Positions 2,140 to 8,788 of a stretch of 64,000 nt of DNA are shown piece by piece. Position 1 is the first letter of the stretch. Each line of letters begins with the position of its first letter. A program made the translations under genes and the position numbers. Source of the DNA: Nitrospirales bacterium (GTDB taxonomy: Bacteria > Nitrospirota > Nitrospiria > Nitrospirales > UBA8639); NCBI GenBank assembly GCA_029261355.1, contig JAJDBM010000024.1:372001-436000 (forward strand), read 5' to 3'. Below the pieces are notes generated by a model. That model saw only the letters and a list, made by a program, of their open reading frames with translations, had not been told where the DNA came from and did not search any database.

Positions 2140-2284
2140 ATGGCCATGAGAATATGGAGTTCACCATTACAGGGTAGAATAGTTAGCAGTAGGCTCATTC
2201 GTGCTAAGTCGTTTTAGACGAAACAGTACATTCCAGTCACATGTTCAGCGTCTGTCATCGCGAACCTGACTGGTTTTTTTATGC
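2140..2284 (+). promoter_or_regulatory. Candidate structured RNA, copy 1 (upstream of SulP)
   Basis: Shares ordered sequence blocks with a second element at 8098-8254. The blocks are TGAGAATATGGAG (2147-2159), GTAGGCTCA (2189-2197), CAGTACA (2224-2230) and TTTTTTTATGC (2274-2284). Between blocks two and three a hairpin forms (TTCGT 2198-2202 with ACGAA 2218-2222). After CAGTACA a two-tier hairpin forms (CCAGTCA 2233-2239 with TGACTGG 2267-2273, inner GTTC/GAAC) and runs straight into seven T. The shape is that of an intrinsic terminator behind an aptamer or of a free small RNA. The SulP start is about 290 bases downstream. I do not recognise a known riboswitch class. Confidence 0.5.
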
Positions 2285-2576: not shown

Positions 2577-4211
2577 ATGGCTTCCGAAACCATATCGATC
2601 CCTCGAGGAACCTTCTCGAACCTTACCAAAAATCTGAAAGCTGACCTCCTTTCTGGCTTTTTGGTCTTCCTGATTGCCCTACCGCTCTGCCTGGGAATTT
2701 CACTCGCATGCGGGTACCCCGCTATTTCAGGCATCTTTACGGCCATTATTGGTGGCATGCTGGCCACCTTCTTTAGTAATTCTGAACTCACCATCAAAGG
2801 CCCTGCTGCGGGACTCATCGTCATTGCCATTGGTTGTGTCACAGAGTTTGGGTACACGGGAGGGAAAGATCCGGCGATTGATTATCAAGCCTACCGATTG
2901 GCATTGGGTGTTGGAGTCATTGCTGGCATTGTTCAGATACTGTTTGGAATGTTCCGTGCTGGAATTTTAGGTGAGTTTTTCCCTGCCTCAGCCGTACATG
3001 GCCTGCTTGCTGCCATCGGAATCATTATTATGGCCAAGCAGCTTCCGATTGCATTGGGTGTTAGTCCTGAAGGAAACCCATTAGAATTGATCGCCCAAAT
3101 TCCCCATTTTGTAATGGCGATGAATCCACTTGTCGGCCTGATAGGCATCATTAGCCTCTGCATCATGTTTAGCTACTTATTCATCAAGAACCCCAAACTG
3201 AAAATTATCCCCGCCCCCATGATGGTACTTCTGGTCACAGTCCCACTCGCGATGTATTTCAATTTTTCTGAGGAACGCACCTATTCATTTGGCGGCCAGG
3301 ACTACCCTATTGGTAAAGCATTTCTTGTGGCTGTCCCGGAAAATATGTTTCACGCCATCACCTTTCCTGACTTTTCTGGCCTTATGACAACCACAGGCTG
3401 GAAATATGTAGTGATGTTTGCACTCATTGGAAGCATTGAATCCCTCCTCAGTGCAAAGGCCATTGACGGCGTAGACCCATGGAAACGCAAAACGAATCAC
3501 GATCAGGATATGCTCGCGATCGGGGCAGGCAATACACTTGCAGCATTCGTGGGCGGCCTACCCATGATTTCTGAAATCGTACGAAGCAAAGCAAATATTG
3601 ACAATGGGGCTCGAACACGATTTGCCAATGCCTTTCATGGGTTATTCCTCTTGCTCTTTGTCGCCCTCATACCTGGATTGATTAACCAGATTCCGTTAGC
3701 GGCACTCGGAGCCATGCTTGTCTTTACAGGCTATCGTCTTGCGTCACCGCAAGAGTTCATTCATATGTACCAGATAGGCCGTGAACAATTTATTATTTTT
3801 GTTTCAACGGTCATCGGCGTGCTCGCCACAGATCTACTCATGGGTATCGCCATTGGAATCTTCATCAATATCGTCATTCACTTGAAAAATGGAGCTCCTG
3901 CAAAATCACTATTTAAACCGAAAGTCAGCATTGAACGGCAAGAGCCGACAGGGGTGACAGTCAAAGTCAAAGACTCGGCAATTTTCAGTACATGGATTGG
4001 GTTAAAGCAAACCTTGGATCGATTGAAAGACGAACCACATGTCGTATTAGATCTGTCTGACACCTACCTCGTTGATCATACGACGATGGCAAAGCTTCAT
4101 GAAATGGAGAAAGAATTTACAGAGCGGCAGTCGAATCTGGTGATTACAGGATTAGAGCGACATCACCCTTTGTCGAATCATCCAGAAGCGGGGAGAAAAA
4201 GGTCGAGGTAG
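2577..4211 (+). CDS. SulP family inorganic anion transporter (probable bicarbonate/sulfate type)
   Basis: A 544-residue SulP (SLC26-type) anion transporter. The N-terminal half has the family's opening helices (residues about 17-75, with the GYPAISGIFTAIIGG stretch), followed by about ten more membrane segments to residue 435. A cytoplasmic STAS domain follows at about 450-535. A clear ribosome site (AGAGGAG) precedes the ATG. Some SulP members carry sulfate and others, such as cyanobacterial BicA, carry bicarbonate with sodium. The neighbouring dabA and Mrp-type genes favour a role in inorganic-carbon uptake, but this is inference from context. It converges on the leftward MpsC-like gene with only 39 bases between them. 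Confidence 0.85.
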   Translation: MASETISIPRGTFSNLTKNLKADLLSGFLVFLIALPLCLGISLACGYPAISGIFTAIIGGMLATFFSNSELTIKGPAAGLIVIAIGCVTEFGYTGGKDPAIDYQAYRLALGVGVIAGIVQILFGMFRAGILGEFFPASAVHGLLAAIGIIIMAKQLPIALGVSPEGNPLELIAQIPHFVMAMNPLVGLIGIISLCIMFSYLFIKNPKLKIIPAPMMVLLVTVPLAMYFNFSEERTYSFGGQDYPIGKAFLVAVPENMFHAITFPDFSGLMTTTGWKYVVMFALIGSIESLLSAKAIDGVDPWKRKTNHDQDMLAIGAGNTLAAFVGGLPMISEIVRSKANIDNGARTRFANAFHGLFLLLFVALIPGLINQIPLAALGAMLVFTGYRLASPQEFIHMYQIGREQFIIFVSTVIGVLATDLLMGIAIGIFINIVIHLKNGAPAKSLFKPKVSIERQEPTGVTVKVKDSAIFSTWIGLKQTLDRLKDEPHVVLDLSDTYLVDHTTMAKLHEMEKEFTERQSNLVITGLERHHPLSNHPEAGRKRSR

Positions 4212-4250: not shown

Positions 4251-4622
4251 CTATTGCAGATTATTTTCCAAATCCTGGCTCAGGGAAAATACAATCACCC
4301 GTTCTCCAATTTGCGTATCAATATCAGTAAAAAGACCAAAAACCGTTGCTCCGGTGATTTCACTCAGTTGTTCAGAAAGCTTTTCCCGACCTTGCGCAAT
4401 AAGATTTTGACGCATGGCTTTCACCATTTCAATACCATCCGCATTATTGGCTAATTGTCGCTCAGCAGGGGTCAAGACACCCTTCAGTCTGATGAGAACT
4501 AAATCTTTCAATATAAAGGCTTTCACGTCCTCAGGACCGCGTCCCATGAATTCCTGTTCAAATTTAATAATGGCATTGCGGATCGCGGCTTCAAGCTCGC
4601 CTTTAGTCCTACCATTTTTCAT
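4251..4622 (-). CDS. MpsC-like protein (DUF2294 family)
   Basis: A 123-residue soluble protein of the DUF2294 family, now also called MpsC after the staphylococcal mpsABC locus. There MpsA is a NuoL-like protein, MpsB is the DUF2309 protein, and the system maintains membrane potential and CO2/bicarbonate supply. Family-like features are the N-terminal amphipathic helix (residues 7-25), the conserved GRGPEDVKAFILKDLVLIRL stretch (about 28-47), LTPAERQLA in the middle, and a C-terminal block with DIDTQIGERVIVF. It is transcribed away from dabA, with a 110-base gap holding both promoters. Its place beside dabA and near a NuoL-like gene supports the MpsC link. Its biochemical role is unknown. Confidence 0.75.
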   Translation of the reverse strand: MKNGRTKGELEAAIRNAIIKFEQEFMGRGPEDVKAFILKDLVLIRLKGVLTPAERQLANNADGIEMVKAMRQNLIAQGREKLSEQLSEITGATVFGLFTDIDTQIGERVIVFSLSQDLENNLQ

Positions 4623-7801: not shown

Positions 7802-8302
7802 TGTATTCTGCGGTTGAGTAAGTGGTATAAGGTTGGTATAAGAAATATAATGATACCGTATGATATCAATCTAACAAGCTTAGACACGATGCATCCAAGA
7901 ATAGACGCTTGATTGAAACATTCGAGTGCCATTTTCCATTCAATGATCGAACGACCAAGAGTATGAGAGGTACCCACGTCTACCCGAACCAATTTCGCTG
8001 ACACAGCACAACTCAACACCTCATGCATGTGAAGTGACATAGGAGCGGGTCATGGATTATCACATACTTACATATTGGTGCCCAAACCTTTTTCTTTCCA
8101 AGACTGAGAATTTGGGAGCCATGATTATGAAACCACTACCATACCTAGGCCGGTAGGGTCACTGTTTCTCGATTGAGGGGAACAGTCACAGTACAAGCTA
8201 ACCCGAAGCTCTTCGAACGATGTGTTCAAAGCTGATGGTTGGCTTTTTTTATGCGCAATATGCTGCTGATGTCATATAGACATCTATAGGTAGGACACGA
8301 GC
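7802..8302. other. Intergenic region between dabA and mrpE
   Basis: About 500 bases without a convincing gene. The 3' half (8098-8254) is the second copy of the structured RNA candidate listed separately. The 5' half (7802-8097) shows nothing I can name. Confidence 0.6.
8098..8254 (+). promoter_or_regulatory. Candidate structured RNA, copy 2 (upstream of mrpE)
   Basis: Repeats the block order of the element at 2140-2284 with similar spacing: TGAGAATTTGGGAG (8105-8118), GTAGGGTCA (8153-8161), CAGTACA (8189-8195) and TTTTTTTATGC (8244-8254). The middle hairpin is ACTGTTTC (8161-8168) with the GGAACAGT arm at 8179-8186. The final hairpin pairs GCTAACC (8197-8203) with GGTTGGC (8237-8243), with inner AGCT/AGCT and GAAC/GTTC pairs, and is followed by seven T. 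Helix sequences differ between the copies while pairing is kept. The terminator-like end is about 50 bases before the mrpE start, as expected for an attenuator-type control of the Mrp-type operon. The class is not recognised. Confidence 0.5.
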
Positions 8303-8788
8303 TTGAGACCGATATCTTCTCAATTTTTATTCCTTAAGACGACAGCCATATTTGTATTGTGGGTCATGTTGTCAGCCAGCTTTGACTGGGTCCACCTTGG
8401 ATTGGGATTAATCCTATCCTTCACCGTCGCCTGGATTAATTCTGGCCATTCCCCTTTCGTGCCAAACTTTCGTCTATGGGGAAAGATAATCTTATACATT
8501 CCATGGCTCTTTTTCAGAATCCTGCAAAGCAGCCTTCATGTCACAAAACTCATTCTTCATCCTGCACTTCCTATTGATCCCAAATTAATTCACGTCAAAA
8601 CCAAACTGGCAAATCCTGCAGCCGTCGTGCTTCTAGGAAATTCCATTACCTTGACGCCAGGTACCATCACCGCAGAAGTGGAACCTGATGCCCTCATTGT
8701 CCATGCCTTAGATGACATATCAGCAGAGGACGTCACGAGTGGAAGGATTGAGTCAAAAATTGCTGAAGTATATAGGAACGGAGAATAG
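8303..8788 (+). CDS. mrpE: Mrp antiporter-type subunit E
   Basis: A 161-residue MrpE/MnhE-type membrane subunit of a multi-subunit cation/proton antiporter. Two or three N-terminal hydrophobic segments (residues about 8-75) are followed by a soluble tail with the family signature NSITLTPGTITAEVEPDALIV (split here as NSITLTPG near 113-120 and TAEVE after it). The start is TTG with GGA about nine bases upstream. It is the first gene of a tightly packed run, followed by mrpF after five bases. In Mrp complexes MrpE sits at the periphery and is not itself a pump. Here it probably belongs to the DabA-linked complex. Confidence 0.85.
   Translation: MRPISSQFLFLKTTAIFVLWVMLSASFDWVHLGLGLILSFTVAWINSGHSPFVPNFRLWGKIILYIPWLFFRILQSSLHVTKLILHPALPIDPKLIHVKTKLANPAAVVLLGNSITLTPGTITAEVEPDALIVHALDDISAEDVTSGRIESKIAEVYRNGE

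Follow-up and report, generated by a model that had tools for sequence, protein, structure and literature searches.

The Nitrospirales carry out much of the global nitrite oxidation and include complete ammonia oxidisers, and little is known about the regulation of CO2/bicarbonate uptake in chemolithoautotrophs that use the reductive TCA cycle. Several described leader RNAs are comparable to the element reported here. In the RAT antiterminators of the BglG/LicT type, a hairpin with internal loops overlaps the 5' arm of a terminator, as it does in our element. The ANTAR dual-hairpin antiterminators likewise consist of two hairpins and act by masking a terminator arm (PMC3369931). The Na+-I riboswitch (DUF1646 motif) is a two-stem ON switch upstream of ion-transport genes, the second stem of which excludes the terminator (PMC9337991), and the Li+-I and Li+-II riboswitches (nhaA-I and nhaA-II) are gene-activating leaders of cation-transporter genes (PMC9646797). 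As to the genes concerned here, DAB complexes are well established as accumulators of inorganic carbon (PMC13144422), and a Mrp-NuoL/M-like-BicA locus in 'Ca. Nitrospira alkalitolerans' has been described as a bicarbonate-uptake module, with no mention of a regulatory RNA in the passages devoted to that module (PMC7784846).

The window analysed in this work is a stretch of 64,000 nucleotides from a Nitrospirales genome, in which two copies of an RNA element were found. We consider it likely that they represent a new family of attenuators that act in cis and control inorganic-carbon uptake operons in Nitrospirales. The family is most probably a class of riboswitches. The first-pass annotation had recognised no known RNA class, and this is supported by Rfam 15, which gave no match in the window at gathering thresholds. 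Six copies of the element searched at E values up to 10 returned chance hits only, far below the threshold of any family, curated riboswitches included, and Na+-I was not among them. In Na+-I, the conserved bases are found at the lower end of P1 and within the P2 loop (PMC9337991), whereas those of the present element lie in internal loops and its apical loops are variable. The element also differs from Na+-I by its location at carbon-uptake genes, mrp within DAB loci being the only Na+ genes seen with it, and from Li+-I and Li+-II by having neither an Rfam match nor an association with nhaA at 90 sites.

Two copies of the element in the carbon-uptake region

The pattern GTAGG[C/G]TCA...ACAGTACA matched the window exactly twice (2189-2230 and 8153-8195) and was absent from 100 shuffled sequences. 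In the whole 4.63-Mb genome (99% complete), the pattern TGAGAATNTGG...GTAGGNTCA was also found twice, with no match of the reversed-pattern control. A genome-wide search with the covariance model described below retrieved the same sites, copy 2 with 85.6 bits (E 3.5e-17) and copy 1 with 49.4 bits (E 2.5e-8), and no further genomic copy except an antisense shadow of copy 2. The proposal that the same sequence blocks occur twice in the same order is thereby borne out, and so is the observation that the helices between them differ in sequence and still pair, at least for P2 and the terminator stem. Both copies precede transport genes, as initially noted, SulP in the case of copy 1 and mnhE in that of copy 2. 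The second DabA gene of the host genome (G000, contig C58, 28052-31153) has no element.

Copy 2 (8076-8250, + strand) is the canonical form of the element. It comprises a predicted 5' hairpin named PA (8076-8121; UGGU[G]CCCAAA...UUUGGG[A]GCCA), which is also present in two relatives of the same genus (L011 and L013), the core (8148-8199; GGC-CG-GUA[GG]GU-P2-CAC[AG]UAC-AA-GCU) and an intrinsic terminator seen in the sequence (8195-8250; AAGCTAACC...GGTTGGCTTTTTTT), the 5' arm of which overlaps the 3' strand of P1. The mnhE gene (8303-8788, + strand; Pfam MNHE PF01899, 114 bits), which is the first gene of an mrp/DAB operon, starts 51 nt past the end of the model match.

Copy 1, on the same strand, is the more divergent copy and may have decayed in part or be tuned differently. 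A putative sigma-70 promoter can be read from the sequence as TTGTCC (2066-2071) and TATAAC (2089-2094) separated by 17 nt, and a -10 box of the type [T]TGGTATAA precedes most relatives in the upstream DNA that was read. The promoter consensus scan listed no promoter at this site at its cut-off. Judged from this promoter-like site (2066-2094), the transcript probably starts near 2101, and the element therefore extends farther 5' than position 2140, where it had at first been taken to begin. The predicted PA hairpin (2111-2165), with the TGGAG block in its 3' strand, has equivalents in many relatives. The core (2189-2230) matches exactly with GUA[GG]..., the P2 strands UUCGU/ACGAA and AC[AG]UACA; it deviates by GGC in place of GGG and by the missing lower P1 (GGC/GCC). 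Sequence and predicted fold indicate an intrinsic terminator at 2233-2280 (CCAGTCA...TGACTGG TTTTTTT). Of the block TGAGAAT(A/T)TGG(G)AG listed by the first-pass annotation, only the GGAG part is widely kept, in the 3' strand of the 5' hairpin, whereas TGAGAAT is local; the last listed block, TTTTTTTATGC, is present and is in fact the U-run of the intrinsic terminator, which is part of the element.

The gene 3' of copy 1 (2577-4211, + strand) encodes a SulP-family transporter (Pfam PF00916, 188.7 bits) related to BicA, although its score against the BicA model (126.7 bits) is below the cut-off of 880. It starts 294 nt after copy 1. Between them, at 2381-2403, is another terminator-like hairpin (GAGTCTCTGAGGCTC AATTTTTT), and SulP may therefore possess an additional start or be subject to a second level of control. 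Between SulP and DabA, an MpsC-domain gene (4251-4622; PF10057, 125.7 bits) is found on the opposite strand; the MpsC annotation is linked to Na+-translocating membrane-potential systems.

Conserved architecture and covariation

Relatives were found by an MnhE protein search in 49 genomes of the family, followed by reading of the upstream DNA, and the element was found ahead of mnhE in most genera. Twenty relatives were aligned without use of structure and served as the basis of covariance model R1. Their consensus reads GGCnGUAGGGU - variable stem - ACAGUACAAGCCAACCAG - inner hairpin - GGUUGGCUUUUUU. In this alignment 94.5% of the cells are standard pairs, and the covariation score is 0.280, compared to 0.169 (sd 0.013) after shuffling and at most 0.091 when the pairing partners were slid. 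For 104 distinct sequences, 95.8% of the cells are paired, double changes occur at 18 of 24 pairs and the covariation score is 0.415 versus 0.196; since this larger alignment was fitted to the model, the structure-free alignment of 20 relatives is the cleaner test. In line with a conserved terminator, the helices 3-5 of alignment A4 covary as well. These data, with their strong covariation, support the earlier description of a structured RNA: its stems covary and its internal loops are conserved. Conservation and covariation, like the overlap and the gene association described below, are evident from the sequences themselves.

The core can be written as GGC-N1-2-GUA[GG]GU-P2-AC[AG]UAC-AA-GCC. 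Of 94 distinct elements, 93 retain the GG/AG internal loop. Variation in GUA/UAC is limited to G-U and U-G type pairs, and the second P2 pair is U-A in 44 elements, U-G in 26 and C-G in 23. As the elements were selected by their core boxes, the conservation of these boxes is partly by construction, but the pairing is not. A complete lower P1 (GGC/GCC) with a spacer of 1-2 nt is present in 85 of the 94, compared to 6.4 on average and 20 at most for other offsets. The only compensatory case is L082, in which GGU faces ACC and the terminator has changed accordingly, and W2 has a G-U wobble in the lower P1. The GCC is almost invariant, so that the case for the lower P1 comes from its conservation and location.

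An extra hairpin usually precedes the core on its 5' side, and in many copies its 3' strand contains GGA, for example GGGAGCCA. A candidate motif for its internal loop was found, as an exact match, in 24 of 96 elements at the loosest cut-off, compared to 7-11 in shuffled sequences, by a test that is too strict, and at stricter cut-offs in 13 versus 0-2 and 11 versus 0. Sequence comparison thus supports the 5' hairpin as a part of the element.

In the upstream regions of mnhE from five f1 relatives (L012, L015, L016, L017 and L020), the promoter and the terminator are kept and the GTAGGG/CAGTAC core is gone, which suggests that some lineages have lost or altered the sensing domain. These regions, as well as a model hit that consists of the terminator only (L205, located after a CBS-domain gene in G026:C81 and rejected as a copy), would also be expected if the terminator alone were functional, a plain partial terminator setting basal expression while the rest drifts. 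This is very unlikely, as between two mnhE lineages it is the inner terminator sequence that changes and GUAGGGU...ACAGUACAAGCC that stays, and as P2 covaries and the GG/AG loop is kept in nearly all of the selected elements.

The position of the conserved bases also bears on ribosome-mediated attenuation by a leader peptide. Short ORFs of copy 2 and of L143 (MIMKPLPYLGR and MIHSCTHTYNR) end at the TAG of GTAGGG, and the number of ATG ORFs that have a Shine-Dalgarno-like site is somewhat above that in shuffled sequences (26 versus 14.7). However, part of this excess is due to a CATGG that is conserved close to the transcription start. No such ORF exists in 71 of 97 elements, the frames and peptides are unrelated, and conservation is found in paired or looped bases and not in codons. 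We therefore regard a leader peptide as extremely improbable.

Distribution in the Nitrospirales

Of the 396 Nitrospirota genomes searched, model R1 matched 112, and 109 of these belong to three families of the Nitrospirales. The three matches outside the order (G105, G107 and G351) are weak, with E values of 0.009-0.04 that are expected by chance in a search of 396 genomes. A pattern scan of approximately 85,000 species yielded 72 stretches, and all those confirmed by the model are from Nitrospirota, including Nitrospira moscoviensis (L161). Five pattern hits from other groups (Lentisphaerae, Babeliaceae, Bacteroidaceae, Oceanospirillaceae and Bacillota) fail the covariance model and were attributed to chance. 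So were GTAGG-CAGTACA hits in G014 and G026:C41 (L003 and L006), which are coding-like and lack a terminator and flanking structure. None of 369 Gammaproteobacteria carried the element, in a search that had no positive control in that group. A real copy was found in L185, titled Nitrospinota; a phylum search from its genome returns the same Nitrospirota genomes, and this genome belongs to the Nitrospirota. The element is also carried by L137, the title of which (Nitrosospira) is probably a naming error.

The covariance search, suggested earlier as a check, thus revealed many more copies, with covariation and nearly all at gene starts, the opposite of the outcomes that had been named as refuting. 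A dispersed mobile repeat, which the first-pass annotation had offered as an alternative, is rejected: there are 1-3 true copies per genome, nearly all of them before functionally linked carbon-uptake genes.

Genes downstream of the element

The first downstream gene was determined at 90 sites, some genomes being counted through two collections and the gene families being confirmed on examples with Pfam. It is DabB/NuoL-like at 55 sites, DabA at 13, SulP at 12 and MnhE at 6, which amounts to 86 of 90. The four unclassified sites comprise two at contig ends or with partial genes, one truncated NuoL-like gene and one open frame of 797 aa with no Pfam match. The distance from the element to the start codon is mostly 4-120 nt. 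In the second family, the operon order is NuoL-like, NuoL-like, NuoM-like, DabA (PF10070, 894 bits) and P-II-like, and in the first family one genome may hold separate copies before SulP, DabA and mnhE (L078 and L080). DabA is present in 134 of 147 genomes of the order. Those genomes that lack DabA and were covered by the model search (e.g. G151, G154, G289 and G304) do not appear among the model hits.

The 797-aa open frame (4207-6600 of L160) is preceded by an element at 4019-4116 (62.9 bits), and a further copy lies 3.3 kb on, ahead of a NuoL-like gene. This frame may represent an addition to the regulon.

With its own promoter-like site and strong terminator, and at 294 nt from SulP in copy 1, the element might be regarded as a trans-acting small RNA located beside transporter genes by chance or for co-expression, as had been considered at the outset. 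The terminator is real, but its usual location, mostly 4-120 nt before a start codon, indicates that it serves as an attenuator and does not mark where a free sRNA ends. In addition, the downstream genes at 86 of the 90 sites are on the same strand and of four linked carbon-uptake types, and several genomes have 2-3 copies, each before a different gene of this kind, none of which a free sRNA needs. A free sRNA is therefore highly improbable, although the element may have an added role in trans besides its control in cis.

Proposed switch mechanism

In the attenuator reading preferred here, the central feature is the GCC that is common to the 3' strand of P1 and to the 5' arm of the terminator. 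Because this final GCC serves both, the core hairpin and the terminator are mutually exclusive. The computed pairing probability of GGC:GCC has a mean of 0.44 when the transcript ends at the GCC and falls to 0.01 in the presence of the terminator, into which the GCC is then paired with a probability of 0.98. Against this reading, P1 is not the predicted minimum everywhere, and the probability of GUA:UAC exceeds 0.5 in 68 of 97 elements; the loss of the core in some relatives and, in copy 1, the missing lower P1 and the 294 nt to SulP also count against it. In the full leader of copy 2, the GCU is predicted to pair downstream with a probability of 1.0, and the fold with P1 enforced has an energy of -36.1 kcal/mol versus a minimum of -36.9, which is a cost of 0.8 kcal/mol. 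A rival helix of this copy, CUACC/GGUAG, is predicted to hide the GUA, which is a further point against it. The leaders combine a conserved intrinsic terminator, located by its distances between the putative promoter and the start codon, with a computed alternative structure that excludes it (85 of 94 elements share the GCC), and a conserved, structured candidate aptamer precedes functionally linked genes.

We propose that two hairpins would form first, the 5' hairpin with its purine-rich internal loop and the core hairpin GGC-N-GUA[GG]GU-P2-AC[AG]UAC-AA-GCC. The 3' strand of the lower core helix (GCC) would also be the first part of the terminator 5' arm (AAGCCAACC...GGTTGGCTTTTTT). A signal that stabilises the core would hold this arm back and so prevent the terminator, and transcription would continue into the SulP, DabA, DabB or Mrp genes, while without the signal the terminator would form and transcription would stop. 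Since P1 and the terminator share the GCC and the P1 form is cheap, a factor that stabilises the core should switch the gene on, and the element is probably a riboswitch with ON logic. In this mode of action it would resemble the Na+-I switches (PMC9337991), to which it does not belong by sequence. We infer in this scheme that the promoter is active, that termination does take place, that the polarity is ON and that a ligand is bound directly.

Core stabilisation could alternatively be brought about by a protein, an RNA-binding regulator that binds the two hairpins in place of a small ligand and blocks the terminator, as BglG/LicT and ANTAR proteins do. A hairpin with conserved internal loops overlapping a terminator indeed resembles the RAT sites of BglG. 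However, the element is set apart from RAT by the absence of the cognate RNA-binding domain, which was found in none of the 58 genomes of the order tested, with the control positive in 4. The two terminator-masking hairpins also resemble the targets of ANTAR proteins (PMC3369931), which are encoded in 45 of 58 genomes of the order. ANTAR recognition, however, needs conserved terminal loops, whereas the apical loops of P2 are 3 to 11 nt long and none of the 97 P2 loops tested is a hexaloop with A1 and G4. The ANTAR protein is, moreover, missing from many genomes that carry the element, among them at least eight that are at least 95% complete (G075, G084, G091, G098, G117, G137, G143 and G148). 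Antitermination by a protein is thus possible but unlikely.

Candidate signals

For the riboswitch that we favour, the candidate signals that fit the genes are Na+, HCO3-/CO2 or pH, and a carbon-status metabolite. The presence of four gene types under one RNA suggests a single carbon-uptake signal, which could be a new riboswitch ligand. By reasoning, Na+ would fit Mrp as well as SulP transporters, which may be sodium-driven; neither nhaA nor nhaB was found downstream of the element among the sites examined. A metabolite of carbon limitation, high pH or Na+ would agree more readily with an ON switch, because inorganic carbon as an ON signal would amount to positive feedback. It is only a tentative and rather doubtful suggestion that the RNA directly senses the inorganic carbon status (bicarbonate/CO2, or a tracking pH or carbon-fixation intermediate), which would make it the first carbon-supply riboswitch in autotrophs. 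The literature searched contained no riboswitch for bicarbonate or CO2. Whichever signal is involved, the element, which precedes the uptake genes of most Nitrospira-type bacteria, has the appearance of a switch that turns carbon supply on or off in nitrite oxidisers, and a leader RNA that occurs across the order and serves a coherent regulon (DAB complex, SulP/BicA-like and Mrp) makes this regulation testable in the tube. In the Nitrospira operon, the P-II-like gene that follows DabA (L188, 9167-9496) recalls the SbtB-type control of bicarbonate transport.
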